A DNA stretch of 64,000 nucleotides from Gracilibacillus lacisalsi DSM 19029 (lineage in GTDB: Bacteria > Bacillota > Bacilli > Bacillales > Amphibacillaceae). The stretch is taken from NCBI RefSeq assembly GCF_000377765.1, contig NZ_KB898662.1, forward strand, positions 434,001 through 498,000, written 5' to 3'. The notes below the pieces were generated by a model. The model searched no databases, was not told the DNA's origin, and saw only the letters and a program-made list of their open reading frames with translations. Of this stretch, positions 2,714-42,389 are shown in pieces (position 1 is the stretch's first letter; each line of letters begins with the position of its first letter). Both the position numbers and the translations under genes were made by a program.

Positions 2714-2750
2714 AAAAAGCCAGTACTTCTCATAAAGTACTGACTTTTTT
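2714..2750 (-). terminator. Terminator of tagO
   Basis: Near-perfect hairpin (AAAAAGCCAGTACTT / AAGTACTGACTTTTT) overlapping the tagO stop codon, with a T-run on the minus strand. Confidence 0.8.
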
Positions 2751-5150: not shown

Positions 5151-5244
5151 ACGATTTCGTCCCTTCTTTAAACTAATGTAATCATATATCATCTTACCAC
5201 ATTTTATATATATAACATAGGATCTAGTTGTCTCATTAATCTAA

Positions 5245-5260: not shown

Positions 5261-5377
5261 AAATGACGTCTAATATATTAAATTGTAAAATTTTTTCTGA
5301 AATCCAATTTACGTCCACCTCATTTCATAGTAAAATGTTTATTAGTGTGGGCTATTCTAGAAATCGGGGGAAATACG

Positions 5378-10682: not shown

Positions 10683-10825
10683 TCTAGTTTCACCTCCTTG
10701 TATAATATTAAACTACTATTCTATTATCTTAAAAATAAGTCAAAGTTTCAATAGCTTTGTCTAAAATTGTATATAATTCCATTTATTTTTGTAGGTATTT
10801 TATCCTATTATCGTAACTAAAAAGT

Positions 10826-10856
10826 AACAAACCGGGCATCAAAAGCCCGGTTTGTT
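10826..10856 (-). terminator. Terminator of the CAP-domain gene
   Basis: AACAAACCGGGC pairs perfectly with GCCCGGTTTGTT just beyond the stop codon of the minus-strand gene that starts at 14423. Confidence 0.85.
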
Positions 10857-10859
10857 ATT

Positions 10860-14423: not shown

Positions 14424-14609
14424 CAAATCAAATTCCCCTCTCATTAATATGAAATTTTCCTACTTTATTATAATTTCGGACAAAAAACAACATTTTGTAG
14501 AAAAAATGTATTGTTATTTTAAAAAAATGAATAAACATCAATTCTGTGAACAACTAACATCTAAAAAAATCGGGTTATGTAAAATTATTGTAATAGATAG
14601 CCTTAGTAA

Positions 14610-14642
14610 AAAAAGAGAGAGAGGATAATCCCCTCTCTCTTT
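14610..14642 (-). terminator. Terminator of the amidase gene
   Basis: AAAGAGAGAGAGG pairs with CCCTCTCTCTTT, directly beyond the amidase stop codon; minus-strand T-rich tail. Confidence 0.8.
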
Positions 14643-14645
14643 CCA

Positions 14646-17736: not shown

Positions 17737-18795
17737 TTATGAAATATCCATATCAGGGATATTTTTCTTTAGATGTTTAATAACATTCTGATAAACTTCT
17801 TCTGACTTAAATACGCCCATATCTGTGATGATATGCTCTCTTTCTTTAACAATGTCTCTCAGTAAGTGCATTTTAAAGTCTTTTTGATCAGTACTATCGA
17901 CAAATGTTAATGTCATTTTTGGTCGATCGATTTTCAACATTGTACTCTCAGGATCGTTTTTTTCAATATCAATCGACATAAATGCACCAATTTGACGATA
18001 TAAACCAAACTGTCCTGTATAGAAGTTCCCCAACGAATAGGCAGCAAATGTTTCTTTTCCACGTGAGTTTAAAATATATGCTGGTGGTTGCAATACATGT
18101 GGGTGGTGACCAATAATTACATCAGCACCAGCATCAGAAAAATCGATACTTACTTCTTGTTGTTCGGATGTGGGATCTAAATGATACTCCCTTCCGAAGT
18201 GTAATGAGACAATAATTACATCGGCAATCCCTTTATTACGAATATCTTTAATCAAGTCTTTCGTTGCTTTTAGACGCATTGGGTGATAGGTATTAGCTAA
18301 ATGCGGCTTTTTATTCACGATTTTTTGTTGCTCTACCCCTACCCCGCGTGTATACGAAAGGAAACATACCTTCAAACCGTTAATGTCAAATAATCTTAAG
18401 TTTTCTTGATCTTCACGACTCTCATGGGCGCCAACATAAGGTAATCCCATTGCCTTAAGATTCTCAATTGATTTTAGTAGACCTTCTTCACCTCTGTCTA
18501 ACACATGGTTATTAGCTATATTTACAATATTTGTTCCATAATCCTTTAAAATATAACCTAACTCTACTGGACTATTGAATTTAGGAAATGAACTTAAACC
18601 AATTTCTTTTCCAGCAATGATCGACTCTAAATTGACAATATTGAAATCAGTTTCTTGAAAAAGTGGCTTTGCAACAGCCAATTTTTCATTAAAATCATAG
18701 CCGAATTTTTTTTTCGCTGTACGATAAACTCTCGTATGCAGTAAGACATCTCCTGTTGCTCCTAAAGTAAATTTACCTGTTCTACCTGTCTTCAT
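17737..18795 (-). CDS. CapA/PgsA-type metallophosphatase-like protein without membrane anchor
   Basis: The 352-aa protein belongs to the CapA (PGA_cap) family of the calcineurin-like fold. Motifs seen are ATGDVLLH, NLESIIAG, NIANNHVLDRGEEGL, SLHFGREYH and IIGHHPHVLQP. In polyglutamate capsule systems CapA/PgsA is membrane-anchored and needed for polymerisation or export. This copy begins MKTGRTGKFTLGATGDV, with no signal or membrane helix, so it is probably cytoplasmic. It overlaps the preceding gene by 14 bp and has its own GAGG site, so it is the last gene of the ATP-grasp operon. Its exact reaction is unknown. Confidence 0.85.
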   Translation of the reverse strand: MKTGRTGKFTLGATGDVLLHTRVYRTAKKKFGYDFNEKLAVAKPLFQETDFNIVNLESIIAGKEIGLSSFPKFNSPVELGYILKDYGTNIVNIANNHVLDRGEEGLLKSIENLKAMGLPYVGAHESREDQENLRLFDINGLKVCFLSYTRGVGVEQQKIVNKKPHLANTYHPMRLKATKDLIKDIRNKGIADVIIVSLHFGREYHLDPTSEQQEVSIDFSDAGADVIIGHHPHVLQPPAYILNSRGKETFAAYSLGNFYTGQFGLYRQIGAFMSIDIEKNDPESTMLKIDRPKMTLTFVDSTDQKDFKMHLLRDIVKEREHIITDMGVFKSEEVYQNVIKHLKKNIPDMDIS

Positions 18796-19783
18796 TTTTT
18801 ACCTCATTTCGATCTTGAGTTTTTATTTCAAAACCCGTTTTAATAATTGGAATATCATTATCCATAAAGTTAAAAGAGCGTATAGGGCAATTTTTGGTAA
18901 CTAATTTTTGTAATTTATAAATATTGTTTTTCTGACCACGTACTACTAAATGGGCATTATATTTTGTTTGATAGTTCAGGTAACCATCTAACCCATAAAA
19001 CAAGACCCGTTGTTGAATCCAACGTTTAAATTGGTTTAGATCTACATCGCCATAGATATCAAAAAGAGCATGGTGATCATGTTCTTCTTTCATAGGAGTA
19101 ATCCTAATTTCTGTCGCATAACCATTGTTAAAGATGGAAGTGGCTCGGCGATAGTCAAAGAAAGCAATGGATTCTTTAGGTTCAAAATTAGAGAAATGTT
19201 GTTTTAATTGATCTAATAGAAGTGTGCGAGATCCTTTTTCAGCGTTCACATAAAAGTATTTGAAGTGATTTAAAGAGTAATTATAATCTAAAAAGATTTG
19301 CTTTTGATCACGATCTACTTTAAATAGTAATTCAATAGGCTGATCTGGTTTAAGATTTGAAGCAAAAGTTGTAATCATCTCTTTTATTGCTTCTATTAAC
19401 TGATTGTCTCCTTGGTATAGTTGATAATCTAGTTGATCAGCTGAATCCGTTTCAGCCTTTAACATCTCCATAACTTCTTTATTATAAACAAGACAAGCAA
19501 ACTCGAATGTTGCACCCAATTCACTTATTTGGATCTGGTAATCAGAGAGAAGACCCGTTGGTTGAAACTGATCGGAGGTGATCTCTATCTGTATAGCTTG
19601 ATTCATATCCACCTGCCAAGATTCACCCTCCTCATTTGCCAAACAATAATGTTCTGGTGAATAATAACTCAAGGTGAGACCAGCACGCCAGCCCTCTAAT
19701 GCTAATAAATAAGGGAAAACCTCATTAGAATCAAGTTGAGTATCTAAGAAATGATGTAATTTTTGTTTCGAGATTTCTTGCAT
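18782..19783 (-). CDS. Paralog of the ATP-grasp proteins lacking the ATP-grasp core
   Basis: The 333-aa protein shares both ends with its ATP-grasp neighbours. The N-terminal module has YLLALEGWRAGLTLSYY (about residues 24-40). The C-terminal acylphosphatase-like module runs from YGDVDLNQFKRW through LDGYLNYQ to IIKTGFEIKTQ. The central section carries none of the ATP-grasp motifs seen in the neighbours (no glycine loop, no NVS-GG, no RDVP). It is therefore likely a non-catalytic partner, scaffold or substrate-binding subunit. Its start overlaps the preceding stop by one base, so translation is coupled. It has no name in any family I recognise with certainty. Confidence 0.65.
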   Translation of the reverse strand: MQEISKQKLHHFLDTQLDSNEVFPYLLALEGWRAGLTLSYYSPEHYCLANEEGESWQVDMNQAIQIEITSDQFQPTGLLSDYQIQISELGATFEFACLVYNKEVMEMLKAETDSADQLDYQLYQGDNQLIEAIKEMITTFASNLKPDQPIELLFKVDRDQKQIFLDYNYSLNHFKYFYVNAEKGSRTLLLDQLKQHFSNFEPKESIAFFDYRRATSIFNNGYATEIRITPMKEEHDHHALFDIYGDVDLNQFKRWIQQRVLFYGLDGYLNYQTKYNAHLVVRGQKNNIYKLQKLVTKNCPIRSFNFMDNDIPIIKTGFEIKTQDRNEVKNEDR

Positions 19784-21357
19784 TATTTTGTCACCTTCCT
19801 AACTACTCCTTTGATTTTGCGAATAACCTTTTGGGATACGGTTATATTTGATTCGGGTGTTGCTTGAGTACCCTTTGTTTTAGCATTTGATTTTTGACTA
19901 GTTTTCTTTGCAGGCATCTTTTTAAGGTGCTGTTTCCTAATATCAAATCCTATTTTTATTGTTTTATCCCAATCTTGAATCATTATCGATTGTTCATCTT
20001 TGTCGCTACTGTTCATAACATTCGATTTTAAGTAAGTAATCATGTTCTCCACGGCTTCTTCTTTACCAGCTACAACAACTAATAGGACTTTCTGCTTCAA
20101 ATTCTTAACATAGCCATGCAAATGATAAATAAGTGCCTGTTCCTTGATCATTTTATAATACGGATCTTTACAATAATCCCCTTTAATAATTATTTTCTTT
20201 TTAGTTAAAGGATAATTAGGCGCATCAGGAATTTTAACTTCATCGGCCACACCACTTGATAAAATATCCATAAAATATTTGTAATCAAAGTATAATTTTT
20301 CATTAACTGGTTCCTTCGTATCAGGAAAGTAATAATCAATGATAGCTTTAGGTACATCTCTTGCTTGTCCTTTTACCGGATACAGATGACTACCAATACC
20401 AGCTCTTGTATTAATCTCAATTACTGCTGCTGAATCCTGTTGCTGATCAACCATAATATCTACTCCTCCATGTGCAAGTCCAGGAATAGCTTTTACAGCT
20501 TTTACAGCAACTTCTTTAACGTACGATGAAAGATGATCAGTTACGTCAATAGGTTCACCACCTGATGAAACATTGCTATTTTTTCGTAACGCTAATATTT
20601 CATTTTCTGGTAAAACCGTACTCAATTTATAATTTGCCTGCTCAATATACTTTCTTGTTTCCATGTCAAACTTGATCGGACGCCCTTTTAAATTAGGATT
20701 ATGATTGCGTTCCTTATTCTTCTGCTTTATTAATTCACGAATGGAGTGCTTTCCATCCCCTTCAATATAGGCAGGTACACGATTAATAGCACCGATGACC
20801 TGTTCACCTACAACATAAACACGGTACTCTTCCCCAGAAAAGAACTTTTCCACAATAATCTCTGAAAAGTCCAAATCATTTCTAACATATTTAATTGCAT
20901 CTAGTAGTTGTGATTCATTATTTATATTTGGAATAACACCTTGACCTAAATTACTATTGGACGGTTTAACAACTAATGGATAACCGATTGTCTCTACAAA
21001 CGTAAAGATATCATCAATTGATGTATCAGGACCAAAGTACTTACCTATAGGAGTAGGAACATTATTATTAATCAAATGTTCTTTAGTTAAATTCTTATCA
21101 TTACAAATCTTCATCGCTTCTTTCGTTGTGTCAGGTCCTTTCGAAACTGCGAAAGAATAGGATTGATCTTGATAAAGAAATTTGTAGTTTACCTCTACTC
21201 GATTGACATATTTAATATTAAAAAATGTAAGGGATAAGCCACGTCTCCATCCTTCAAGTGCAATAGTATATAAACTCAATTTATCTGCAGGTACAGCCTG
21301 TGGCACACAATTTTTCAGATGCTCTAACCTAGTTTGATCAGTACTCAAAGCATTCAC
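19783..21357 (-). CDS. ATP-grasp ligase, cyanophycin-synthetase-like (paralog 1)
   Basis: The 524-aa protein has four parts. An N-terminal module contains ALEGWRRGLSLTFF. A CphA/D-Ala-ligase-like ATP-grasp core (about residues 95-345) shows YPLVVKPSNSNLGQGV, EEYRVYVVG, NVSSGGEPIDVTD, GGVDIMVD and GQARDVPKAIIDYYFP. Next comes an acylphosphatase-like domain, about 390-470. Last is a basic, Lys-rich tail. Such enzymes join a carboxylate to an amine through an acyl-phosphate. Neighbours suggest it elongates an amino-acid polymer or side chain. The GTG at 21357 sits very close to AGAAGG, so a TTG three codons later is also possible. It lies 301 bp beyond the upstream terminator and probably has its own promoter. 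Confidence 0.82.
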   Translation of the reverse strand: MNALSTDQTRLEHLKNCVPQAVPADKLSLYTIALEGWRRGLSLTFFNIKYVNRVEVNYKFLYQDQSYSFAVSKGPDTTKEAMKICNDKNLTKEHLINNNVPTPIGKYFGPDTSIDDIFTFVETIGYPLVVKPSNSNLGQGVIPNINNESQLLDAIKYVRNDLDFSEIIVEKFFSGEEYRVYVVGEQVIGAINRVPAYIEGDGKHSIRELIKQKNKERNHNPNLKGRPIKFDMETRKYIEQANYKLSTVLPENEILALRKNSNVSSGGEPIDVTDHLSSYVKEVAVKAVKAIPGLAHGGVDIMVDQQQDSAAVIEINTRAGIGSHLYPVKGQARDVPKAIIDYYFPDTKEPVNEKLYFDYKYFMDILSSGVADEVKIPDAPNYPLTKKKIIIKGDYCKDPYYKMIKEQALIYHLHGYVKNLKQKVLLVVVAGKEEAVENMITYLKSNVMNSSDKDEQSIMIQDWDKTIKIGFDIRKQHLKKMPAKKTSQKSNAKTKGTQATPESNITVSQKVIRKIKGVVRKVTK

Positions 21358-21414
21358 TTCCTTCTAATATAAACTTAATCACTTTTAATGAATAAGCAGA
21401 AATTTTCACGAACC

Positions 21415-21654
21415 ATTTTATCACAACCATTTCAGCTATAATAGGCAAATTTACTTATTAATATATAAAACAGTTGCTTATTACATTTTATCTAATGACA
21501 AAGCTTTTTACGAGTCTTTTCTAGCAATTGCGACAAATAAACCGCTCAAAAACTATGAAGATCATAGTCATCTATTTAGTAATACTTACTCACCTAGACC
21601 TGACGATCCTTTTAAATATGTTTACATAAAACATCAAAAAATCAAGCAATCATA
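21415..21654 (+). pseudogene. Possible gene remnant in the ATP-grasp intergenic gap
   Basis: In the 301-bp gap, one plus-strand frame stays open for about 80 codons without any ATG, GTG or TTG start and ends in TAA at 21652-21654 (it includes ILSNDKAFYESFLAIATNK and YSPRPDDPFKYVYIKHQ). Composition looks protein-like, but I do not recognise it, and its end overlaps a terminator hairpin. It may be a decayed gene fragment or chance. Confidence 0.2.
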
Positions 21655-21672
21655 ATGATTACTTGATTTTTT
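21636..21672 (-). terminator. Terminator inside the ATP-grasp cluster
   Basis: AAAAAATCAAG pairs with CTTGATTTTTT, overlapping the stop codon of the upstream ATP-grasp gene (21659). It splits the cluster into an upstream unit (to 21659) and a downstream unit (21357-17737). Confidence 0.75.
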
Positions 21673-23311
21673 GTGACTTAAAACCTTGACCGATAGCTCG
21701 CAACGGAGCTGTCATTCTCCAGGAGCGACTTAATTTCATCTTAATGTTTTCTTTCTCTAATCTCCGTTTATCTTTTCGCATTTTATGAAGCTCTTTCTCA
21801 TAACGCTTAATCACGGTGTTAATGTTTCTCCGTCCTATATTCTCCATTTCCTCACTGATTTCAAAGCCTATTTTTACAGGTTGATCAAATGTTTCTTCCG
21901 TTACTTTCTTTACCTCAGCTATGCCTTCAACATCTGTTATCACTTGTTTAAAATGATTGACGACTGCTTTATCTGTACCAGCTACTATAACTTCAATTTC
22001 ATTCTCTGTTAAAGTTGTAATATAACCACTTAAGTTTAAATCTAAAGCTGAATATTTAATATAGCGATGGTAACGAATTCGATTCACTTTTCCAGATATA
22101 ACATAGCGTTTCTGATAGATATCACCAACTAAAGCTGGTGCAACCTCTACTTCTTCACCTGAACGGTTTTGTAATGGTTCTAATACTGTATTAAAATCAA
22201 AATAAACCTTTTCTCGATCTGTCTTAATATCTTTAGTTTCAGGGAAATAATAATCAACGATAGCGGAAGGGATATCTCTAGCTCTACCTCTCATAGGAAA
22301 GAGAATTCCACCAATTTGTGCGGTTGGATTTAACTCAATCACAACAGCAGCTTGATTGACAGGTTTATTTAAGTCAACGATAATATCGACCCCACCATGG
22401 TAAAGTCCTGGGATTGCTTTAACTGCATTAATAGCAATTTGCTTAAACTCCTCTGGTATCTCATCGGTAACATCAACAGGATCTCCTCCTGCTGACACAT
22501 TTGTTTTTTCTTTTAGGAGGATCTTTTCGCCCTTTTTCGGAATACTGGTCAAATCATAACCACTATGATCAATAAATTCTAAAGTTTCTTGGTCAATTTC
22601 AATTAAGCAACTAAATAGACGTGCATTTTTTCGACGCTGCTCGTTTTTATATTCGATTAATTCTTCAATTGTATGTTCTCCATCACCAATAATGTTGGCA
22701 GGTAAACGATTATAAGCTGCAACGACTTGATCTTCTACTACATAGACTCGGTATTCTTCCCCAGGTACATATTGCTCTAATATCAGTTCTTCATACTCAA
22801 GCGTATTTCGTACATAATCAATCGCTTTTTCTAATTCTTTTGCCGTTTTAATATTGGTAATTACTCCGTTACCAAGACTTCCATTAGTCGGCTTCAAGAC
22901 TAATGGATAACCAATTTCTTCAGCATAAGCAATCATATCTGCCTTCGTTGTACCTTCTAAAAATTCATCACCTTTGGGTACTGGGACACCTTCTCGCTCT
23001 AAATAAGTTTTTGTTTCATTCTTATCGGAGCCGATCTCCACAGCTTCATCCGACACCTTGTCACCACGAGTTCGGAAAAAATAATGGGTTTTCGTATCGG
23101 AACTTAATGAAAATAATCTCCCTGGTGGATTTACTCCAAAGGTAATCATATCGTCAAATTTACCCGAATCAATTGTATACCATTTTAACGTTAACCCTCT
23201 GCGCCAACCTTCTAAAGCTACTGCATAAGCGCAAAGCTTTGTTTTCCTTGCACCTCTTACAATCTCATTGGTGAGGTGCGGAAGTGAAATTACTTGTTGA
23301 TTGTTCCACAT
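21659..23311 (-). CDS. ATP-grasp ligase, cyanophycin-synthetase-like, with C-terminal coiled coil (paralog 2)
   Basis: The 550-aa protein has the same plan as paralogs 1 and 3. The N-terminal module reads VALEGWRRGLTLKWY, followed by HYFFRTRGDKVSDEAV. The ATP-grasp core (about residues 100-350) has YPLVLKPTNGSLGNGV, NVSAGGDPVDVTD, GGVDIIVDLN and RGRARDIPSAIVDYYFPE. An acylphosphatase-like domain spans about 385-485. The C-terminus adds a basic coiled coil (RYEKELHKMRKDKRRLEKEN) and the motif SRSWRMTAPLR. That coiled coil plus SxSWRxTAPLR tail is familiar from polysaccharide glycosyltransferases, where it may hold complexes together. Start ATG 23311 has a GGAGG site. The gap to paralog 3 is 29 bp. 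Confidence 0.85.
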   Translation of the reverse strand: MWNNQQVISLPHLTNEIVRGARKTKLCAYAVALEGWRRGLTLKWYTIDSGKFDDMITFGVNPPGRLFSLSSDTKTHYFFRTRGDKVSDEAVEIGSDKNETKTYLEREGVPVPKGDEFLEGTTKADMIAYAEEIGYPLVLKPTNGSLGNGVITNIKTAKELEKAIDYVRNTLEYEELILEQYVPGEEYRVYVVEDQVVAAYNRLPANIIGDGEHTIEELIEYKNEQRRKNARLFSCLIEIDQETLEFIDHSGYDLTSIPKKGEKILLKEKTNVSAGGDPVDVTDEIPEEFKQIAINAVKAIPGLYHGGVDIIVDLNKPVNQAAVVIELNPTAQIGGILFPMRGRARDIPSAIVDYYFPETKDIKTDREKVYFDFNTVLEPLQNRSGEEVEVAPALVGDIYQKRYVISGKVNRIRYHRYIKYSALDLNLSGYITTLTENEIEVIVAGTDKAVVNHFKQVITDVEGIAEVKKVTEETFDQPVKIGFEISEEMENIGRRNINTVIKRYEKELHKMRKDKRRLEKENIKMKLSRSWRMTAPLRAIGQGFKSQKIK

Positions 23312-23340
23312 ATACTTTCCTCCAGCTATTTCGAAATGAT

Positions 23341-24987
23341 TTATGACTCTTTGTCCTTATTAAAAAGCCGGTACGTTCCTTTTACTACATCAGATACACG
23401 ACGAAACGGATAAGTAACTATCCATGATTTACTCTTTTGGAAACTATTATATTGTTGTTCTAATTGTTTTAGTTCTTTCTTCATCATGTTCATTTCTTCA
23501 TTTAATTCTTTCAGGTGTTCTAACTGTGTCTTATAATCTGCCTTAATTTCAAATCCGATCTTAACAGGCTCATCCCAGATTACTTCTTTGATATCTTCTA
23601 CTGTAGACCTTTCCGGGTCTTCCTTTATCGATTCTTTAAACTCTTCTAGCATCTCTTCACTATCACTAATAACAACTATTTCAATTCGTCCGTCATGTAA
23701 TTTGCTAATAAAACCACTAATTCTTCTTTCAAATGCTTGCTTTCTTAAACCTCTGTGATAATCAATACTTAAAACATCACCCGAGACAATGAATTTTCTT
23801 CCATAAACTATTCCCTTTGGTGGTTTCGACACTTTTGTAACAGTGGCCACTTTTGAGATTAGTGGTTCTAACATATCCCCTAAATCAAAATAAAGGCTCG
23901 TTTGTCTTTCCACACCCTTTGTCTCAGGGAAATAGTAGTCCATAATAGCAGCTGGGACATCTCGGGCTTGTCCTCTCATTGGGAACAAAAGCGAGCCTAT
24001 TTGTGCAGTAGGATTTATTTCTAACACGTATGGCGTAATCTTTTCACCATCTATTTGCACAATAATATCTACCGCCCCATGAGGCAGTTCAGGAACAACT
24101 TTCAATGCGTTTACTGCAGCTTGTTTTACTTTTTCATCTAGCTCATCTAATACGTCAACTGGGTCTCCACCAAGTGAAATATTCGACTTATTAGTGAGGA
24201 AAACCTGCTCTCCTTTTGGAGGTATTTCATCAAATTGATAACCTTGACTTAAGACATAATCGATAAGCTCTTGATTAATTTTTATCGGACAACTAATTAA
24301 ACGGGGATTATCCTTGCGCATCTCATTCTTCTGATCAATTAACTGCTTGATTGTATCCTCACCGTTACCAACAACATTCGCTGGGATCCTTTTAATAGCT
24401 CCAACAACTCTGTTATCTACTATATATAGTCTGTAATCTTCACCTTCAATAAACTGTTCTACAAGAATATCGTCTTCTAAGTCCTCCTTCACATTATTCA
24501 CCGCATTTTGGAGTTCCATTGAATCTTTAATATTCGTGTAGACTTTATTCCCAAAACTTCCGTTCACCGGTTTTACCACAACAGGATAACCAATACTATC
24601 GACATATTCATTGATTTCCTCAATGGTACTATCCTTGGAAAATGTCTTACTTAAAGGTGTAACGATGTTGTTTTTTACTAGATGTTCTTTCGTTGCCTCT
24701 TTATCTGCTCCAATTGTTACTGCATCGTTACTAACCTTGTCTCCTCTACTTTTAAAGAAATAATGGGTTTTATCCCCTAAGCTCAGAGAAAATAATTTAC
24801 CTGGCTTTTCTGTTGCCCAGGTTTTCATATCTTTAAATTTTTCTGAATCTTTTACATGCCATCTTAATTCTAAACCTCTTCTCCAACCTTCAAGCGCAAT
24901 GACATATGCATCTAATTCCGACCCTCTTGCATCGGTAACAATTTCACTTGATAGATGTGGAAGCCAACTTGTATTTTGATCTTGCAT
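23341..24987 (-). CDS. ATP-grasp ligase, cyanophycin-synthetase-like, with C-terminal coiled coil (paralog 3)
   Basis: The 548-aa protein has N-terminal ALEGWRRGLELRWH and HYFFKSRGDKVSNDAV. Its ATP-grasp core shows YPVVVKPVNGSFGNKV, NISLGGDPVDVLDE, GAVDIIVQ, EINPTAQIGSLL and RGQARDVPAAIMDYYFPE. An acylphosphatase-like domain follows (about 385-480). The tail is a coiled coil ending SKSWIVTYPFRR. It is closest to paralog 2 and was probably made by tandem duplication. A strong AGGAGG site precedes ATG 24987, 11 bp after the TupA-like gene. It probably adds an amino acid to a growing peptide or glycan carboxylate; the substrate is unknown. Confidence 0.85.
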   Translation of the reverse strand: MQDQNTSWLPHLSSEIVTDARGSELDAYVIALEGWRRGLELRWHVKDSEKFKDMKTWATEKPGKLFSLSLGDKTHYFFKSRGDKVSNDAVTIGADKEATKEHLVKNNIVTPLSKTFSKDSTIEEINEYVDSIGYPVVVKPVNGSFGNKVYTNIKDSMELQNAVNNVKEDLEDDILVEQFIEGEDYRLYIVDNRVVGAIKRIPANVVGNGEDTIKQLIDQKNEMRKDNPRLISCPIKINQELIDYVLSQGYQFDEIPPKGEQVFLTNKSNISLGGDPVDVLDELDEKVKQAAVNALKVVPELPHGAVDIIVQIDGEKITPYVLEINPTAQIGSLLFPMRGQARDVPAAIMDYYFPETKGVERQTSLYFDLGDMLEPLISKVATVTKVSKPPKGIVYGRKFIVSGDVLSIDYHRGLRKQAFERRISGFISKLHDGRIEIVVISDSEEMLEEFKESIKEDPERSTVEDIKEVIWDEPVKIGFEIKADYKTQLEHLKELNEEMNMMKKELKQLEQQYNSFQKSKSWIVTYPFRRVSDVVKGTYRLFNKDKES

Positions 24988-24998
24988 AAAGATGCCTC

Positions 24999-29004: not shown

Positions 29005-31528
29005 GAAGATCTGGCTCCAATCTTGCAAAATGCATCTGATAACCAAATTGCTCTTCGACAAATTGCTGAGCTTTTGCGACTTGCCTATTGTATAATTCGT
29101 CGTCTTGCATTAATTGTTTTACTTTATTTTGCACTTGTGCTGGTTCCGCATAAATCGCTGCATCTTGAAATAGATTCTGGTAACTTGGTGGGATAATAAC
29201 TGGTACACCAGCTGCCATCGCTTCAAAGATTACCCTACCGAATGCTTCAACCCAGCCTGGATGTGTATAATAAACAAATACATCTAATTCTTTGAGGAAT
29301 GTTTGTGGTTCCACTTCCCCAAATTCATAAACCTTCCAATTAGCAGGAATTTGTCCAAGTACTTTCTTTGGTACTTGCGCTCCTCCTAACACATGTATTT
29401 CGAATTCATTAGATTCCGGATATATCGTTAATAGATCCTCTTTTGTATGTGGCCACTTCACATATTGTGCGCGTGAATGACGACCAATTTTAATAGGTCC
29501 TTGTTTAGCCGGTCGTTCTTGTCTTTTCCATTCCGCTACATTAATAATATTTAACCAGTCAGAAGAAGCAAGATTAATAGATGCTAAATCTTCTTTATGA
29601 TGTGTTTCTAATGCCTCTCTAACAGACGGACCGATCGGATACCATGTTCCTTTATCACCGAAATACTCTTTCAACCTATTGACAGTAGTAGGAATATCGT
29701 ATAACGCTTGTTCATCTATCGTATAATCTCGCTTCGGTGGTTGATTGACAATCACCTTGATTGATTTTGCCTCTACATCTGGTAAGTGCTTTTGCCAATC
29801 CTGTAAAACTGGTGGATGGCGAACAATTAATACATCACAGCTAACTTTTTCACCATACACTAACATTTGCACTTGTTTACCATCGATTTGTTCACGTACT
29901 TTTGGGTTAAGTGTTGTGACAGAGTTTAAATCATATCTGTACATCTGGACAAGACCAGTTGTTAAGCCTAATTCTTTTTGGGCCTTAATTTCCTCGATAT
30001 TAGATGCATTAGTACCACCAAGCAATCTAAATTCTGATGCTATTATCACATCGAAATGTCTTCTTTTATTTTTCACACGTTCCGGTAGCATCGGCTCTGG
30101 AACTGGAAAAGGTCTTTGTTCCATAGGATATGGATAATATACATCTTCCGCATGCTCATGGTGATATAATTGTGATTCTAGGTAATCCTTCCTTGCTCCC
30201 ATAAAATAGCCCGGGAATCCGAAGGCAGAGCTTGCGGTTAAAGATGTTTCTGTTTGTCTTTGGAAAGATAATGGCGCTGTTTTTAATTCTACAACACTTT
30301 TCTCACCGAACACATTCTTTACTCGACGAACAAATTCAGAGTCCCCGCCAAATCGTACGCTATCCCAGTAACCAATTGCTTTCATCACCGGTTCTCTCCG
30401 GAACATAAAGGATGACATATTAGAAAAAACATACTGTCCAAATTTCCCTCTGCGATAGAATGTCATATCTGTCGTTGCTCGTACTTGTTGCGAGAAATTA
30501 GCGATGGTAGACGTATGTTTGATTAAATGATTCACTTGTGTCGCAATCTTCTCTGGGTGTGACCAGTCGTCTGCATCATTGACGGTTACAAACTCCCCAG
30601 TAGCAAGTTGTAAAGCAGCGTTCCGTGACACATAGGCACCCGAATTCTGCGTGTTTTGCATAAGTTTAATACGGTTATCCTTCTTCAAATAGTTCTCAAC
30701 CACTTCTAAGGTATGATCTGTACTACAGTCATCGACCACCATGATCTCAAGGTTTTGCCAAGACTGTGTTGTTAAAGCACGCAACGTTGTTAAGATCGTA
30801 TCTTCCGCATTGTAGGTTGGTACAATGATCGTTACTTTCGGCTGATTGGTCTGATTGGTCCAGTTATCGTTAGCCAGTGTTGTGATCGAATCATATGTTG
30901 TAGCTGCTCTGTTTTCATTAAAGTTGATCGGTGTATTTTGATAACTTGCATAGATGGAATTGATCCATTTCAACTTCTCTTCATGGTCATCCGCTACGTT
31001 GGCTAATGCTAGATAAAGATCTTCATGTTGTTCCTGCTTCAGAGCTTTTAACAAAATATTTTTCGCCTGCTCTTTTTTCTCTAATGTTACTAATGCTTCT
31101 GCAGCCATGATCGCATACTTACGATTTAAAACACGATCCTTCTCACCATTGGAAAGCTCACGAATAATCATAAGGCTTTGTTTTGCATGTTCTTTATCAT
31201 ACTTATTGGCATGCCAAAGACTTAGCTCACGGCCAGATAATTTTTGTAAAAAACGGTCTTCGGTATGTTGATAAAGGTTAGATAGATCTTCTAACCCTTT
31301 GTCAGTAAAACCCATACTGTATAATTTATTTCTGATTCGATCCACTTTTTGTAATTGGGATCTTTTCTTGCCAGGTTTAATGACCTTTTTTAACAATGCT
31401 TTTTGTTTATCTGTTAGCAGACTGCTTAAAAACTCTTTTTGTTTAGTATTCATTTTTTTATAAAGAATCCAGTCTACTGTCGCAAAAACTTTATTTTTTA
31501 CTTTTCTTATCATTTCTAACACACCCAT
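28985..31528 (-). CDS. Two-domain glycosyltransferase (GT2 + GT-B), paralog A
   Basis: The 847-aa protein has an alpha-helical N-terminus with TPR-like character (about 60-200). The GT2 domain (about 230-455) shows VTIIVPTYNAEDTI, MVVDDCSTDHT and VNDADDWSHPEKI. The GT-B domain (about 500-840) shows FDVIIASEFRLLGGTN, IGRHSRAQYVKWP and HPGWVEAFGRVIFEAMAAG. It is about 60 percent alike to paralog B by eye, so the pair is a duplication. It lies 7 bp after the ABC ATPase gene. The ATG at 31528 has a weak ribosome site; an internal ATG (MIRKVKNK) is possible. Confidence 0.82.
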   Translation of the reverse strand: MGVLEMIRKVKNKVFATVDWILYKKMNTKQKEFLSSLLTDKQKALLKKVIKPGKKRSQLQKVDRIRNKLYSMGFTDKGLEDLSNLYQHTEDRFLQKLSGRELSLWHANKYDKEHAKQSLMIIRELSNGEKDRVLNRKYAIMAAEALVTLEKKEQAKNILLKALKQEQHEDLYLALANVADDHEEKLKWINSIYASYQNTPINFNENRAATTYDSITTLANDNWTNQTNQPKVTIIVPTYNAEDTILTTLRALTTQSWQNLEIMVVDDCSTDHTLEVVENYLKKDNRIKLMQNTQNSGAYVSRNAALQLATGEFVTVNDADDWSHPEKIATQVNHLIKHTSTIANFSQQVRATTDMTFYRRGKFGQYVFSNMSSFMFRREPVMKAIGYWDSVRFGGDSEFVRRVKNVFGEKSVVELKTAPLSFQRQTETSLTASSAFGFPGYFMGARKDYLESQLYHHEHAEDVYYPYPMEQRPFPVPEPMLPERVKNKRRHFDVIIASEFRLLGGTNASNIEEIKAQKELGLTTGLVQMYRYDLNSVTTLNPKVREQIDGKQVQMLVYGEKVSCDVLIVRHPPVLQDWQKHLPDVEAKSIKVIVNQPPKRDYTIDEQALYDIPTTVNRLKEYFGDKGTWYPIGPSVREALETHHKEDLASINLASSDWLNIINVAEWKRQERPAKQGPIKIGRHSRAQYVKWPHTKEDLLTIYPESNEFEIHVLGGAQVPKKVLGQIPANWKVYEFGEVEPQTFLKELDVFVYYTHPGWVEAFGRVIFEAMAAGVPVIIPPSYQNLFQDAAIYAEPAQVQNKVKQLMQDDELYNRQVAKAQQFVEEQFGYQMHFARLEPDLHDPKRS

Positions 31529-31535
31529 ACTTAGG

Positions 31536-33116
31536 TTATTGTTTCACTACTTGTTTCTTCTTTTTCTTTGCTTTCGCTTTAGCCTTCGGTTTACTTCGGT
31601 TTGTTGCTTCACGATATGCGGCTACGACTTCTTCTGAAGCGCCATCTTGTCTCACTTGACCTTTTTCAATCCAGATGGCTCTCGTACAAACCGTCTCAAC
31701 AAATTTCATACTGTGTGACACGATAATAACTGCCTTTGCTTGTTCCATCATTTCTTGTATCTTCTCACTTGCTTTCTGTTTAAATGCGACATCACCTGTT
31801 GATAAAGCCTCATCAATAATAAAGATGTCTGGCTTTAGGATCGCGGCGATACTAAACCCTAACCTTGCTCTCATTCCACTGGAGTATTGTTTAATTGGCT
31901 TATAAATTTTATTTCCTAATTCCGAAAATTCAATGATGTCATCTACATGTTTGTCAACTACAGCTTTTGATAAACCTAATAGCATTCCATTTAAGTAAAT
32001 ATTATCTATGCCTGGTAACTGTTGATTAAATCCAGTACCATAGCTTAACAATGCAGTTGTTTCACCATTAACGACCACTTCACCTTCGTCAGGCTTCAAT
32101 ATCTTAGTTAACACTTTACACAACGTACTCTTCCCTGCACCGTTATGGCCGATAATACCGACTACTTCCCCTTCCGAAATAGTGAAATTTAATTTATTTA
32201 AAGCAATATGTTCATTTTTGCGTTTCTCATTAAATTTAATCGTTAAATCTTTCACAGATACGACTTCTTCGTTCTTAATGACTGATTCCGTTTTGGTTAG
32301 TTCAAGACGTTTTCGCGGTTTTCTTTGCACTTTTGGAATCGTTGCTTCATATTGCTTCAATATGTCCTCTGGCTCACCAATTGCCCGAATTTCACCTTGC
32401 TCAAGCCAGATTAATCTGTCACAATTTTTCTTCGCATAGCGGTGACTGTGGGTTACGATGATTACCATTTTTGCTTGACCTAACAGCTCACGGATTTTCG
32501 TAGCTGCTTTTTGTCCGAATGCTCGGTCCCCTGTATTCAAGGCTTCATCCAAGATTAAAATTTCTGGCTCCAAGTGTGCTGCTACACTGAAACCGAGTCT
32601 TGCTTTCATCCCGCTTGAATAGTTTTTCATTGGTCTATCAATGAACTCCCCAAGCTCAGAAAACGCATGGATTTCATCGAAAAACTCGTCTATTTTTGCT
32701 TTACTGATACCTAACATCATACCGTTTAAGTAAACATTTTCCCGTCCTGTTAATTCTTTATTAAACCCCATGCCTAAAGAGAAAAGAGCAGACACTTTGC
32801 CATTCACCTGTAAATTTCCTTCATCTGGATGTAGTATACCTGTTAAAGCTTTACATAATGTTGTTTTTCCCGAACCATTTGACCCAACAATTCCAAGCAC
32901 TTCACCTTTATACCCTGTGAAATTAATATGGCGAAGCGGCCAAATTATCTTTGGAGCTTTTTTCTTCTTGTTTTTGTCCTTATTCGAGAGATACTTTATG
33001 GCTATTGATTTATAGTCATCTCTTGCATGAGAACTAAAGGCAACCCCTAAATCATCTGCTTGAATGACGACTTCTTTTTGATTTTGTAAGGCGTTCTCTT
33101 CATTTGTTGTAACCAT
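31536..33116 (-). CDS. ABC exporter ATPase with two nucleotide-binding domains (TagH-like)
   Basis: The 526-aa protein contains two complete ABC domains of the polysaccharide/teichoic acid exporter class. Domain 1 has GSNGSGKTT, SSGMKARLGFS and ILILDEAL; domain 2 has GHNGAGKST, SSGMRARLGFS and IFIIDEAL. A short linker and a Lys-rich C-terminus (KPKAKAKAKKKKK) are the only extras. B. subtilis TagH has one ABC domain and works as a dimer, so this fused tandem could be a built-in dimer. I chose ATG 33116 because GAGGG lies 9 nt before it. With the downstream-translated TagG-like permease it would export a lipid-linked polymer. Confidence 0.88.
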   Translation of the reverse strand: MVTTNEENALQNQKEVVIQADDLGVAFSSHARDDYKSIAIKYLSNKDKNKKKKAPKIIWPLRHINFTGYKGEVLGIVGSNGSGKTTLCKALTGILHPDEGNLQVNGKVSALFSLGMGFNKELTGRENVYLNGMMLGISKAKIDEFFDEIHAFSELGEFIDRPMKNYSSGMKARLGFSVAAHLEPEILILDEALNTGDRAFGQKAATKIRELLGQAKMVIIVTHSHRYAKKNCDRLIWLEQGEIRAIGEPEDILKQYEATIPKVQRKPRKRLELTKTESVIKNEEVVSVKDLTIKFNEKRKNEHIALNKLNFTISEGEVVGIIGHNGAGKSTLCKVLTKILKPDEGEVVVNGETTALLSYGTGFNQQLPGIDNIYLNGMLLGLSKAVVDKHVDDIIEFSELGNKIYKPIKQYSSGMRARLGFSIAAILKPDIFIIDEALSTGDVAFKQKASEKIQEMMEQAKAVIIVSHSMKFVETVCTRAIWIEKGQVRQDGASEEVVAAYREATNRSKPKAKAKAKKKKKQVVKQ

Positions 33117-33136
33117 GGTAAACAACCCTCTTTTTT

Positions 33137-33931
33137 TTATAATACTTTAATGATCTTATGTTCGTTTTTGTAATAGTGATATAACATAAATAATATCGCG
33201 ATGATCGAAACTACTGTTATCACGAACAAGCCTAGGAATTGCGGTGTCTGTTGCTCCATTAAGATGGCACGGTAAGCATTTAATAATATTGCAACAGGGT
33301 TCAAATCCAAAATAAAAAGTAACTGTTCAGGTATTCTTTCACTGTCCGCTATTCTACTTCCTTCCCATATAATTGGTGAAGAATAAAAGAATATGCGCAG
33401 CACGTGTGATAAGACATTATCAATATCCCGTACAAATACCGTAATATATGATATGAATAAACTGATTGCACCTAAGAATATCAGCGTAATCAAAATAATC
33501 ACAGGTAATAAAATAATTTGCCAGCCTGGTACATAGCCAAATACAGCTAAGAAGATAGCGATAACCACTAACCCAAAACAGAAGTTAAACAATTGGGTAA
33601 CCGATAATGATAGTGGAAATATCGCTTTTGGTAAATACACTTGATTAATAATCGATGAATATTTAGTAATAGATTTCGCGGAAGAATTAACGGTAGTATT
33701 GATCCAACGCCACACCACTAAACCAATTACTAAATATACGGGATATCCTGGTCCGCCACGTCCTAACAGAATCACAACAAGGAAATAATAGACAACCACA
33801 TTTAATAATGGATCTAATAACCACCAAAAATACCCTAAATAACTATTTCGGTTTTCTGCTTTCAAACTTGATTTCACAAGATATATAAGTAAATCTTTTC
33901 TTTTTAATATTTCCGATATATAATTCAACAT
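33137..33931 (-). CDS. ABC-2 type polysaccharide/teichoic acid export permease (TagG-like)
   Basis: The 264-aa protein has about six hydrophobic segments and the ABC2_membrane pattern of wall-polymer exporters: SSLKAENRNSYLGYFWWLLDP near the N-terminus and FFYSSPIIWEGSRI, LDLNPVAILLNAYRAIL further on. It moves lipid-linked polymer across the membrane with the ATPase encoded 20 bp downstream. The ribosome site is weak (AAGAG). Confidence 0.9.
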   Translation of the reverse strand: MLNYISEILKRKDLLIYLVKSSLKAENRNSYLGYFWWLLDPLLNVVVYYFLVVILLGRGGPGYPVYLVIGLVVWRWINTTVNSSAKSITKYSSIINQVYLPKAIFPLSLSVTQLFNFCFGLVVIAIFLAVFGYVPGWQIILLPVIILITLIFLGAISLFISYITVFVRDIDNVLSHVLRIFFYSSPIIWEGSRIADSERIPEQLLFILDLNPVAILLNAYRAILMEQQTPQFLGLFVITVVSIIAILFMLYHYYKNEHKIIKVL

Positions 33932-33954
33932 TTGCTCTTAGACACCACCAATTT

Positions 33955-34746
33955 TTACCTCATATAATTTAAATATGCCTTCACCTTTAAAAATACGTAA
34001 TGAGCGAAATACCACAAGCTCTTTAAAAAGCTCAGTTCTTCGACTTGCCTGTAAACGATCCAATTTTGTTTCGCCATTCTGACTTTGTTACTTGATATCG
34101 AATTACTTCTTACTCGATATGCTGCCAGTACTTCTTGTAAACCATAAGCTTTGTAACCACGCCTAGTGAGGTTAAGCCATAATGCATAATCTTGCCGGGA
34201 ACGGATGTTAGCCATCCGAATGTCAGGAATCTTTTTTCGATCCAATATAACGGTTAAGCATCCGATCACACAGCTTTTCAACAGCTGCTGATATGTTGCA
34301 GCTTCTGGCATCTCGACATCTTTTTCTATTCTGTGTCCTTCATCATTGACTTGGACTCGTTTATATCCTGTATAGGTAAAAGCATAATCATGCTCCCTCA
34401 TAAACGTTAATTGTCTTTCTAATTTTTCCGGCAACCATCTATCATCACTATCCAAAAAAGCGATATATCTGCCATATGCGTTTTCGATTGCTGTATTTCT
34501 AGCGACCGCTGCCCCTTGGTTTTTTTCAAGGGCAATCAGTCGAATTCTATCGTCTTCTTTCTGATATTCTTCAATAATCGAGATTGTCTGATCGGTTGAA
34601 CCGTCATCCACAATTACCATTTCCCAATGCGGATAGGTTTGCTGTCGGACCGACTCTATCGTCTCTCGTATATACGTTTCTGAATTATAGGTTGGCGTAA
34701 TTACAGAAACAAGATTGTAATCTTTTATTTCATTCATATTTTCCAT
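33955..34746 (-). CDS. Family 2 glycosyltransferase
   Basis: The 263-aa protein is a GT-A fold family 2 enzyme: VSVITPTYNSETYI, MVIVDDGSTDQT, NQGAAVARNTAIENA and AFLDSDDRWLPEKLERQL with the DxD-type metal site. It has no membrane segment. It overlaps the stop region of the upstream glycosyltransferase; ATG 34746 or the ATG three codons on (behind AGGATGG) may be used. It probably adds one sugar to the lipid-linked glycan before export. Confidence 0.87.
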   Translation of the reverse strand: MENMNEIKDYNLVSVITPTYNSETYIRETIESVRQQTYPHWEMVIVDDGSTDQTISIIEEYQKEDDRIRLIALEKNQGAAVARNTAIENAYGRYIAFLDSDDRWLPEKLERQLTFMREHDYAFTYTGYKRVQVNDEGHRIEKDVEMPEAATYQQLLKSCVIGCLTVILDRKKIPDIRMANIRSRQDYALWLNLTRRGYKAYGLQEVLAAYRVRSNSISSNKVRMAKQNWIVYRQVEELSFLKSLWYFAHYVFLKVKAYLNYMR

Positions 34747-34747
34747 C

Positions 34748-35878
34748 CTATTTATTTAATAATTGCTCATACCATGCCAAGAGCTTCTTCTCCTGAGATT
34801 CCCAGCTTAACTCCTGTAAGACCGCTTTTCTACCATTATACCCCATCGTCTCCGCTTCTAGTGGATGATTGTTTAAGTATTCTACAGCAGCGATCCATTC
34901 TTGCTTATTTTCCGGATCAACGGTAATACCACATTGATGCTGGTCGATAAATTCCTGCCATCTTGAAAAATTCGAGCAGATGATCGGCAATCCTGCACTC
35001 ATATATTCAAAAAACTTCGTTAGTTCCTTCTTCAAATAATGATCGGTTGCGGGAAAAATCGCTAAACCAGCAATCCAATTTTCGTTTAAATAATAACTAT
35101 CAATCTCTTCTCGCTCAACAAAACGGTCAATCCCGTCAAAGTGGAGGTAGTCTTGCTTGTCACCTGCATGTTCTTTCATTTTTTCTGCTAAGTTACTCGG
35201 GCATTTCCCAACTAAATAAACATGCTTGTCCATGATCTTTGGTATTTCAGCATGGTAAAATGCGCCTCTTTCCACCGATACATTTCCGGTGTATAACAAT
35301 TTGTCGCTCACCTTGCTTCGATCAATTTCCTGATTGATTAATTTCTCATTCAAGATCGGATAATTGAGGATGCATGTCCCACGTTGATAACGATCATAGT
35401 AATATTTTTCTGCTAGACAAAGCTCCATTTTCTTTACTAGTAACCGTTCCATACCATTGTACAATTTACCAATTATTCGTTTGATCGGCTGAGGAAAATA
35501 CTCTTTCTGCATAATACTTGTATAATAATCCTCATGTACATCATAGATGATTGTGTTATCTTTCTTTTTTAACAGCCAACCGACAAAGATTAATTCCGGA
35601 TCATGAAAATGATAAATATCCGCCTTCATCCTTTTTGCTTGTTTATAGGCTTGGATTGGCCCAAAGAGCATTCGTTTCCAGCGATTGGCATACTTCTTAA
35701 GTGGAATGATGTCTACTTTATTTTGCTCATCCTGACTATCACTTTGTTCATCGATTGGAGCCATTAACGACACATCATATCCACTCTTTTGCAGTGATAC
35801 ACATTCTTTATGGTAAATTCTCGTATCATATGGGTGATGAACAGTCGTGATATGGACAATTTTACTTGATTGAGACAA
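34748..35878 (-). CDS. Family 4-type glycosyltransferase
   Basis: The 376-aa GT-B enzyme starts with IVHITTVHHPYDTRIYHKEC, typical of GT4 enzymes of capsule clusters. It has YHFHDPELI, YDVHEDYYTSI and a C-terminal FFEYMSAGLPIICSN motif that corresponds to the E-x7-E nucleotide-sugar loop. It is soluble and likely membrane-associated. The following GT2 gene starts at its stop codon, so the two are translationally coupled. Confidence 0.85.
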   Translation of the reverse strand: MSQSSKIVHITTVHHPYDTRIYHKECVSLQKSGYDVSLMAPIDEQSDSQDEQNKVDIIPLKKYANRWKRMLFGPIQAYKQAKRMKADIYHFHDPELIFVGWLLKKKDNTIIYDVHEDYYTSIMQKEYFPQPIKRIIGKLYNGMERLLVKKMELCLAEKYYYDRYQRGTCILNYPILNEKLINQEIDRSKVSDKLLYTGNVSVERGAFYHAEIPKIMDKHVYLVGKCPSNLAEKMKEHAGDKQDYLHFDGIDRFVEREEIDSYYLNENWIAGLAIFPATDHYLKKELTKFFEYMSAGLPIICSNFSRWQEFIDQHQCGITVDPENKQEWIAAVEYLNNHPLEAETMGYNGRKAVLQELSWESQEKKLLAWYEQLLNK

Positions 35879-35973
35879 ATAGATAAACCTCCACTTCTAT
35901 AAAGGCAAACTTAAGTTTTGCCTTCGTTTAACTGATACTTTTGAACAAATAATTCGATGTGAACAACCATTAA

Positions 35974-37083
35974 TTATAGCACATCTAGAAAGATTTGTTC
36001 ATATTGTCTTACGATCTTGTTAGAGTTAAAGAATGTCGCACGTTCATAGCCTTTCGCTGTGATTGTTTGCAATTCTTCTGGAGTTGCTTGTAAAACAGCG
36101 AGCATATTCTCTGCAAGCTGCTCTTGATCACCGACAGGACTTAACAACCCATATTTGCCGTTGTCCAATACCTCTGATGGACCAGAGCGACAGTTGGTTG
36201 ATACAACAGCTGTTTTGGTCGCTAATGCTTCGGCAATTACATGACTAAATCCCTCATGCTTAGATGACAGTACAAATAAGTCGGCATGACGGAAATAAAC
36301 ATACGGATTTTGTTGAAACCCAAGAAAATGTACACGATCTTCTATGTTTAATTCGTTTGATAACTGTTTTAATTCATCATATAAATACCCTTCTCCAAGC
36401 ATCACCAACTGACTAGCGCATTGTTCATTTACCTTTGCAAAAGCGCGTAGCATCGTGTGATGATCTTTTTGAGGGACTAATCGTCCAGCGGTAATGATCA
36501 TCTTGTCATCTGTATCAAATAATGACTGATGATCGAAGTCTTCTTCTTGATTAGCCAGATCTGTAATATTGGCGACATCGACCGGGTTATAGATTACTTC
36601 AATCGATTTTCTCGGTACTTTATACCGTTCGACTAGATTGTCTTTTACCCCTTCTGAAAGGGAGATAATTTGATTCGCTAACCGATAAACAAGGCCAAAT
36701 CCTAATAACTGAAGATTTTCTTTCCATGTACCACCTAGATTATCCGCTTCCCTAATCACATTTTTAGCTTTTGTCAAAGAGGCTAATTTTGCCAATATCG
36801 CAATCGTGTTTACTCTTGGAATCGTACTAAATACAATGTCTACTTGTTGTTCTCGAATTATTTTTGCTAATTTAAAAATCGATCTGCTCAAACGTTTCGT
36901 ATCCAATTTAATAAAGGTTACATCATCTTTTAGTGCATGCTCATAAGACCCATCATAGTTTAGCGTGACTAAGATGGGGGAAAATTTATTTCTATCTAAG
37001 TTATTGATAATGTTTAATAAAGTTCTGGCAGCTCCACCGGCGCCCATTTGATAGATAAAGAACACGATGTTTACTTTTTTCAT
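35974..37083 (-). CDS. Family 4 glycosyltransferase, first gene of the cluster
   Basis: The 369-aa GT-B enzyme begins NIVFFIYQMGAGGAARTLL and carries IITAGRLVPQKDHHTML, HFLGFQQNPYVYFRHADLFV and SSKHEGFSHVIAEALATKTAVV, the standard GT4 C-terminal signature. A 423-bp gene-free stretch lies upstream, so it is probably the first gene of the leftward cluster. A 95-bp gap separates it from the next glycosyltransferase. The donor is unknown. Confidence 0.87.
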   Translation of the reverse strand: MKKVNIVFFIYQMGAGGAARTLLNIINNLDRNKFSPILVTLNYDGSYEHALKDDVTFIKLDTKRLSRSIFKLAKIIREQQVDIVFSTIPRVNTIAILAKLASLTKAKNVIREADNLGGTWKENLQLLGFGLVYRLANQIISLSEGVKDNLVERYKVPRKSIEVIYNPVDVANITDLANQEEDFDHQSLFDTDDKMIITAGRLVPQKDHHTMLRAFAKVNEQCASQLVMLGEGYLYDELKQLSNELNIEDRVHFLGFQQNPYVYFRHADLFVLSSKHEGFSHVIAEALATKTAVVSTNCRSGPSEVLDNGKYGLLSPVGDQEQLAENMLAVLQATPEELQTITAKGYERATFFNSNKIVRQYEQIFLDVL

Positions 37084-40590: not shown

Positions 40591-40592
40591 GA

Positions 40593-41453: not shown

Positions 41454-41474
41454 CTTCTTGTCCCCTCTCAATAT

Positions 41475-42317: not shown

Positions 42318-42389
42318 GTCTTTGCAGCGCCTCACTTTCTCTAGTACGATTTCCCCTTTATAAATGTTTCATTTTTTTATTTTTGTGAA

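Follow-up and report, generated by a model that had tools for sequence, protein, structure and literature searches.

What polymer is made by a gene cluster that joins several cyanophycin synthetase-like (CphA-like) ATP-grasp ligases to glycosyltransferases (GTs) and a TagGH-type exporter? Such a cluster lies in a 64,000-nucleotide stretch of Gracilibacillus lacisalsi DSM 19029 (contig NZ_KB898662.1, positions 434,001 to 498,000; hereafter the window) and consists of 13 minus-strand open reading frames (ORFs) running from position 37083 down to 17737 (Table 1). Pfam and NCBIfam profile searches bear out the domains that a preliminary description of the locus had named on this strand: all 13 ORFs match, comprising CapA, the ligases, a ligase paralog without the core, TupA, fused GTs, TagGH and further GTs. 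The same description had proposed a glycan to which amino acids are added, as decoration or extension, by amide bonds and which is exported by TagGH, and had suggested a search for the gene set in other genomes. The gene set was found to be conserved, and the predicted glycan-amino acid product is the best fit to the comparative evidence. It is supported because TupA and ligase are strictly linked behind the GTs and the exporter, because CapA-TupA and GT-TupA fusions occur and GalU and UDP-glucose dehydrogenase genes adjoin, and because some clusters carry an Asp/Glu-type racemase, a MurF-like ligase and a D-Ala-D-Ala ligase (Ddl) in their tails; a TupA-like domain in Campylobacter (Cj1438) also forms an amide on glucuronate, according to the available part of PMC11800379. 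In our view the cluster probably directs the synthesis of a uronate glycan that carries amino acids and is attached to the wall, a polymer of the same type as teichuronopeptide, and the ligases would extend its peptide.

Conservation of gene order

Stretches fetched from other genomes, together with the window, were labelled by the best phmmer match of each protein and merged when they shared an identical protein. This left 71 stretches with a full-length ligase, 62 of them also with TupA, and the counts that follow depend on stretch length and on these best-hit labels. In 61 of the 62 stretches the immediate neighbour of TupA is a ligase gene of the same strand; the exception is locus L124, where an ATPgrasp_ST gene lies between the two. 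Of the 58 stretches containing TagH, 54 show the longer colinear order TagH-GT(-GT)-TupA-ligase; the remaining four are L068, with TupA in two frames, L076, L077 and L124. Between two and six full-length ligases are present per TupA cluster. CapA or a CapA-TupA fusion accompanies 29 of the 62 clusters, a YheCD-type ATP-grasp protein 31, an amino-acid racemase 8, a MurF-like ligase 2, GalU 13 and a TuaD-like gene 11, all of which are lower bounds because the stretches end. In several relatives, GalU and TuaD-like genes are located upstream of GT4a, the first gene of the cluster.

In a tree of 250 distinct ligase sequences, a single clade of 60 holds all 59 ligases located immediately behind TupA, and another, of 49, holds 48 of the 60 second ligases; the other 131 proteins are tail or unplaced ligases. 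LigA and LigB, the ligases of these two positions, are largely position-fixed orthologs. Nine Oceanobacillus stretches share GTf-GTf-TupA-LigA-LigB and differ in their tails, and locus L090, cut by a contig end, begins like L087 and L092. The pattern of the cluster is thus a fixed first part joined to a swappable second part.

Distribution across genomes

The family of G. lacisalsi was sampled with 159 genomes including its own, with limits of E <=1e-40 for ligase and E <=1e-20 for TupA matches. Each of the two is matched in 36 of the 159 genomes: both occur in 33, only TupA in 3, only a ligase in 3 and neither in 120. The coincidence in 33 genomes argues against a chance assembly of the cluster, in a tally that is a non-independent sample because the genomes are related. 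Among the TupA-only genomes, G007 and G035 carry a GT-TupA fusion and no ligase, and the contig of G111 ends inside a LigA. The ligase-only genomes comprise G148, with a teichoic-acid-type cluster, and G002 and G082, in which the ATP-grasp part only is matched.

In wider samples, ligase matches were obtained in 20 of 397 genomes order-wide and 2 of 398 class-wide, both of the latter from Gracilibacillus (E <=1e-100, own genome included). A phylum-wide sample gave 88 of 398 at a looser limit, full-length in the own genome and G214; the other matches cover the ATP-grasp part and lie mostly in open frames of about 860-960 amino acids, the size of CphA, which were not checked singly. Four other families also contain TupA matches of this kind, counting CapA-TupA-like frames, in 21 of 35, 1 of 18, 3 of 7 and 5 of 41 genomes.

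Named hosts were taken from 65 distinct loci among the best 80 of 127 confirmed stretches. They include Gracilibacillus, Evansella, Alkalihalobacterium, Amphibacillus, Virgibacillus, Pontibacillus, Salinicoccus, Lentibacillus, Oceanobacillus, Thalassobacillus, Halalkalibacter, Alkalibacillus, Natribacillus, Shouchella, Salipaludibacillus, Alteribacter, Cerasibacillus and Lederbergia, most of them salt- or alkali-loving genera. The closest named relative among these best 80 stretches is Gracilibacillus orientalis (LigB 84%). In genome G070, which we take to be Oceanobacillus iheyensis HTE831, the sole TupA match at E <=1e-20 lies at 3.017 Mb within a complete cluster, with UDP-glucose dehydrogenase and GalU genes upstream. 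LigB was not covered to >=80% at one place in any of the 10 phage or 131 plasmid records with a match, and no Rfam match was obtained at gathering thresholds.

Architecture of the ligases

ATP-grasp ligases of the CphA, GshB and RimK type convert a carboxylate to an acyl phosphate, which is then joined to an amine. LigA, LigB and LigC match the cyanophycin synthetase model TIGR02068 with 195.4, 232.4 and 221.3 bits over about 275-295 residues of its ATP-grasp part, and are relatives rather than members of that family, since its cut-off is 850 bits. An AlphaFold model of LigB (mean pLDDT, the predicted local distance difference test, of 90) has its best Foldseek matches in CphA1, CphA2 and GshF, followed by LysX/ArgX and RimK. 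The likeness to CphA1 and CphA2 extends over about 280 aligned residues of the ATP-grasp core. Unlike them, the ligases of the window have no Mur-ligase half; all three carry an acylphosphatase domain (PF00708 in Pfam) at the C-terminal end instead, together with a helix, and they come as several paralogs linked to a glycan exporter. Residues K97, K140, D309, E326 and N328, presumably the catalytic ATP-grasp positions, are each kept in 248-250 of the 250 ligases.

An active acylphosphatase carries a catalytic Arg and Asn; at these positions the window has H and K in LigA, H and T in LigB, and Y and N in LigC. Both residues are kept in 36 of the 131 tail or unplaced ligases, in 3 of 60 LigB-position proteins and in none of 59 LigA-position proteins. 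An active acylphosphatase in LigA and LigB is unlikely, the catalytic residues being mostly replaced, and because the Arg is a His in most of them (100 of 119 proteins at the two positions), the domain is probably a binding module.

Beyond this domain, the C-terminal ends of the window's LigA and LigB carry an S-x-S-W motif. Counted with a single loose pattern, S-x-S/T-W/F/Y, of which a few matches are clearly chance, the motif is present in 133 of 273 ligases, 24 of 63 TupA, 18 of 60 GTf2 and 3 of 52 GTf1 proteins; the same pattern matches 4 of 67 TagH proteins and 5 of 118 unlabelled ORFs, and none of 55 TagG or 45 GT2s proteins. We read it as a putative docking device.

In the paralog downstream of LigC the ATP-grasp core is missing and two blocks are retained, ALEGWR at the N terminus and one at the C terminus (PF00708 17.7 bits, cut-off 22.5); the protein is 23% identical to LigB. 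Among ORFs of 200-440 amino acids in the fetched stretches, no other gave a match to it of more than 32 bits. The short proteins next to the MurF paralog in some tails were considered as core-less ligases and rejected, as they are Ddl-like.

TupA, its fusions, the exporter and the tail

TupA has no sequence relatives in the PDB at E 0.01. In its structural model the C-terminal half is an ATP-grasp ligase that resembles Ddl, LysX/ArgX and RimK, and the N-terminal half is helical and of low confidence. Fusions connect this protein to both halves of the cluster. Pfam identifies a CapA-TupA fusion in L096, and phmmer finds similar proteins in L100, L112 and L122. GT (Rhamno_transf)-TupA fusions are found in two clusters without ligases from the family of G. 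lacisalsi (L188:9058-11424 and L189:8681-11071), in L188 followed by an amino-acid racemase.

The exporter ATPase is a fusion of two TagH-type domains that is conserved in most relatives: 56 of 67 distinct ORFs labelled TagH have two Walker A motifs, and the rest are in part cut off where a stretch ends and in part paralogs with a single domain. A clear membrane-spanning profile is confined to TagG among the proteins of the cluster, so that CapA looks cytosolic.

A 301-bp gap after LigB separates the core from the tail, which in the window consists of LigC, the core-less paralog and CapA. The terminator-like hairpin at the end of LigB counts as weak evidence, because the region holds 17 such hairpins and 11.6 are expected from shuffles. 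Elsewhere the tails vary, holding additional ligases, CapA, YheCD ATP-grasp proteins, an amino-acid racemase and, rarely, a MurF-like ligase with Ddl. The racemase of L086 matches TIGR00035 with 211 bits and also scores above the cut-off of a cysteate racemase model. Within the ligase tails of L075 (14333-16663) and L101 (14691-16745), a MurF paralog without the N-terminal substrate domain is followed by a second Ddl; a third MurF paralog, in L119, has no Ddl neighbour. A cluster from Amphibacillus contains a cyanophycinase-like S51 protein (L039:9798-11093; 100.3 bits, cut-off 126.6), possibly a polymer-turnover enzyme.

A proposed route and what weighs against it

We infer a route to the product from what is observed: the genes present and their conserved order, the domain architecture, the intact residues of the ATP-grasp core, the fusions and the species-specific tails. 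All reaction steps, the direction and sequence in which residues are added, the docking by the motif, the identity of the amino acids and the attachment to the wall are proposals. A WecA/TagO-type enzyme would start the chain on a lipid carrier, UDP-glucose dehydrogenase would supply UDP-glucuronate, and the GT2, GT4 and fused GT2/GT-B enzymes would build the chain. TupA would then use ATP to activate the uronate carboxylate and couple an amino acid to it by an amide bond. The ligases would follow in the order LigA, LigB and tail ligases, each converting the new terminal carboxylate to an acyl phosphate and attaching one further residue. Growth outward from the sugar, with one chemistry throughout, is suggested because the amino acid added by TupA would leave a free carboxylate as the natural substrate of LigA. 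During this process LigA and LigB might be held at the membrane-bound glycan machinery through the C-terminal helix and the S-x-S-W motif. Export by the double-ATPase TagGH and attachment to peptidoglycan by an LCP transferase are proposed because of the gene content. In such a scheme a shared stem would come from the first, conserved ligases and a species-specific end from the tails. Acidic residues are the most likely amino acids to be added, and that polyglutamate forms part of the product is a guess.

Several observations weigh against this route or narrow it. The available portion of a 2013 review (PMC3815933) states that ATP-grasp ligases generally phosphorylate the donor substrate, and under this general rule the peptide might also grow in the other direction. 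The docking motif pattern was not found in TupA, LigC, GTf1 or GTf2 of the window. CapA or its TupA fusion, GalU and the TuaD-like UDP-glucose dehydrogenase accompany only part of the 62 clusters, at the lower bounds given above. The system is patchy, with ligase matches in 3 of 17 genomes of the genus, and so is not needed by the whole genus. Relatives of the ligases also occur in the TupA-less clusters L107, L109 and L114, beside CDP-glycerol glycerophosphotransferase-like genes and TagGH, which suggests that amino acids may be ligated to a teichoic-acid-type polymer too. Conversely, PF14305 proteins of about 294 amino acids are found in other polysaccharide operons (G1332, G1342, G1344) with no such ligases in the fetched stretch; TupA alone therefore does not imply a peptide. 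Genomes G007 and G035 of the family of G. lacisalsi, and G1329 within its 20-kb stretch, have the exporter, the fused GTs and TupA and no ligase.

These ligase-less clusters speak for the likeliest alternative, namely that TupA amidates the uronates with one amino acid or amine and that the ligases provide small alternative amide substituents without forming a chain. A precedent is the capsule protein Cj1438 of Campylobacter jejuni, a GT2 with a TupA-like ATP-grasp domain that reportedly acts on the carboxylate of glucuronate; the protein has the same domain order as the GT-TupA fusions of the relatives; its products are small amide substituents, and the available part of PMC11800379 does not mention CphA-like ligases or TagGH. 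The number of full-length ligases per TupA cluster, with two of them fixed in position, fits serial elongation better, and the relatives CphA, GshF and RimK form peptides. We regard decoration with single residues as unlikely.

Less probable still is the assumption of two separate polymers, an ordinary teichuronic-type glycan from the core operon and an independent poly-amino acid from the tail with CapA. The gap and hairpin after LigB and the location of CapA in the tail would agree with such a division. Against it, TupA, LigA and LigB are part of the conserved core, where they come immediately after the GTs, and the CapA-TupA and GT-TupA fusions join both halves. The poly-gamma-glutamate synthetases PgsBCA/CapBCA, in which PgsB is Mur-ligase-like, share the CapA/PgsA-family protein (PF09587) with the cluster; unlike in these systems, CapA here has no membrane segment and is fused to TupA in some relatives, and none of the 13 cluster proteins, to which the search for PgsB and PgsC was confined while the rest of the genome was not searched for them, gave a match to either. 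A cyanophycin-like storage compound or soluble peptide (osmolyte, siderophore), with the glycan genes as chance neighbours, would explain the kinship of the ligases to cyanophycin synthetases in sequence and fold and the cyanophycinase-like protein of the Amphibacillus cluster, but is highly improbable given the colinearity with exporter and GTs, the missing Mur-ligase half and the recurrence of the ligase C-terminal motif in TupA and GTf2.

Relation to known polymers

The amino-acid-bearing uronate glycan thus remains our preferred product, and its nearest described counterpart is teichuronopeptide, which consists of poly-gamma-L-glutamate and polyglucuronate (PMC8153356). Acidic wall polymers are said to help alkaliphiles hold their pH, and the product of OB2920 of O. 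iheyensis is described as similar to that of tupA (PMC8153356). As excerpted, the same paper has a single sentence, listing no genes, on the discovery in O. iheyensis of genes whose enzymes synthesize teichuronopeptide; this speaks against the cluster being wholly new. A published account of such a cluster was not found in the open-access literature searched, as far as its accessible text extends. According to the available part of the 2013 review, Bacillus halodurans has a wall polymer of short-chain L-polyglutamate (L-PGA), teichuronopeptide, with neither a pgs nor a cap operon, which implies an unidentified system such as L-PGA synthetases with an ATP-grasp domain (PMC3815933). The predicted ligases fit this suggestion, and the cluster is a good candidate for the missing machinery.

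Teichuronopeptide synthesis in B. halodurans C-125 and the present cluster have in common a TupA-family ATP-grasp protein and a supply of UDP-glucuronate, and the reported product fits the gene content; the sources, in the passages available, name tupA alone, whereas the present locus is an entire cluster that also encodes several ligases, CapA and a TagGH exporter with a double ATPase. The hosts are mostly alkaliphiles and halophiles in both cases. The teichuronic acid operon tuaA-H and TagGH export share with the cluster a TuaG-like GT2, UDP-glucose dehydrogenase, an LCP transferase and a TagG/TagH-type exporter, and differ from it by the fused double ATPase, the extra ATP-grasp ligases and the variable tail.

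The TupA-LigA-LigB cluster is a concrete and widely distributed candidate, and makes the question testable by single-gene deletions. If the proposal is true, it would show how the acidic wall polymers of alkaliphiles are made, and would add a peptide-ligase family of unusual architecture (ATP-grasp and acylphosphatase) as well as a peptide-on-glycan pathway present in many genera of Bacillota. A broader and much more tentative idea, which we hold to be doubtful, is that the clusters represent a third peptide-on-glycan line beside the Mur and pseudomurein pathways, in which serial ATP-grasp ligases would build a species-specific peptide on a wall uronate glycan from a common TupA-LigA-LigB start and a swappable tail. 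Some tails might then add D-amino acids (racemase) and a D-Ala-D-Ala end (MurF paralog and second Ddl, in two clusters), and the polymer could be cross-linked into peptidoglycan by transpeptidases.

Neighbouring genes

Functionally related genes extend beyond the cluster, at 2749-17672 (Table 1). Three large wall-active proteins occupy 7065-17672 beside the cluster and contain about 11-13 PG_binding_1 stretches each. Proteins with PG_binding repeats are found in 42 of the 62 TupA clusters, and the ligand of the repeats may be this polymer instead of peptidoglycan.

Table 1. Features of the ligase cluster and its surroundings in the window
Feature	Position	Strand	Basis
GT4a, GT-B fold glycosyltransferase (GT4 type)	35974..37083	-	PF00534/PF13439; orthologs in the same place in relatives
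GT4b, glycosyltransferase (GT4 type)	34748..35878	-	PF13439/PF00534; position conserved
GT2s, TuaG-like glycosyltransferase	33955..34746	-	PF00535; TuaG model NF047683 365.5 bits (cut-off 400)
TagG-like ABC-2 exporter membrane subunit	33137..33931	-	PF01061 (ABC2_membrane); strong hydrophobic segments
TagH-like exporter ATPase, two fused ABC domains	31536..33125	-	PF00005 in two stretches; NF010066 401.6 bits (cut-off 320)
GTf1, GT2 + GT-B two-domain glycosyltransferase	28985..31528	-	PF00535 + PF00534
GTf2, GT2 + GT-B two-domain glycosyltransferase	26365..29061	-	PF00535 + PF00534
TupA-like ATP-grasp ligase, N-terminal part helical; proposed to amidate uronate	24999..26381	-	PF14305 225.9 bits (cut-off 25); conserved residues; model
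LigA: N-domain, CphA-like ATP-grasp, acylphosphatase domain, C-terminal S-x-S-W motif	23341..24987	-	Position-fixed clade
LigB: architecture as LigA; last gene of the conserved core	21659..23311	-	AlphaFold model; Foldseek
Terminator-like hairpin, 18 pairs (4 G-C), at LigB 3' end, ahead of the 301-bp gap	21635..21673	-	Consensus match only
LigC: variable-tail ligase	19783..21357	-	Domain/profile matches; tree
Core-less ligase paralog	18782..19783	-	N-terminal block, weak acylphosphatase-like block, ATP-grasp core absent
CapA-like PGA_cap protein without membrane segment	17737..18795	-	PF09587 222.9 bits
N-acetylmuramoyl-L-alanine amidase, PG_binding_1 repeats; proposed polymer-targeted wall hydrolase	14646..17672	-	PF01520 + PF01471
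CAP-domain protein, PG_binding_1 repeats	10860..14444	-	PF00188 + PF01471
Glucosaminidase, PG_binding_1 repeats and SH3_3	7065..10682	-	PF01832 + PF01471
LCP glycopolymer-peptidoglycan transferase (TagU/LytR type)	5345..6442	+	PF03816; TIGR00350 138.8 bits (cut-off 62.3); TagU model NF006897 241.9 bits (cut-off 441)
UDP-glucose 6-dehydrogenase; proposed UDP-glucuronate source	3984..5192	-	NF011631 654.2 bits (cut-off 757); TIGR03026 350.6 bits (cut-off 189.8)
WecA/TagO-type polyprenyl-phosphate sugar-phosphate transferase	2749..3822	-	PF00953; TIGR02380 140.1 bits (cut-off 326)

On the other side, the cluster is adjoined at 37507-42335 by genes for an AcrB-family RND pump, an HlyD-like adaptor and a TetR regulator, in a Gram-positive organism; an AcrB homolog occupies the same place in genome G033. 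Farther along, an AimR-like regulator (PF22871, 196.8 bits) is encoded at 48046-49080.

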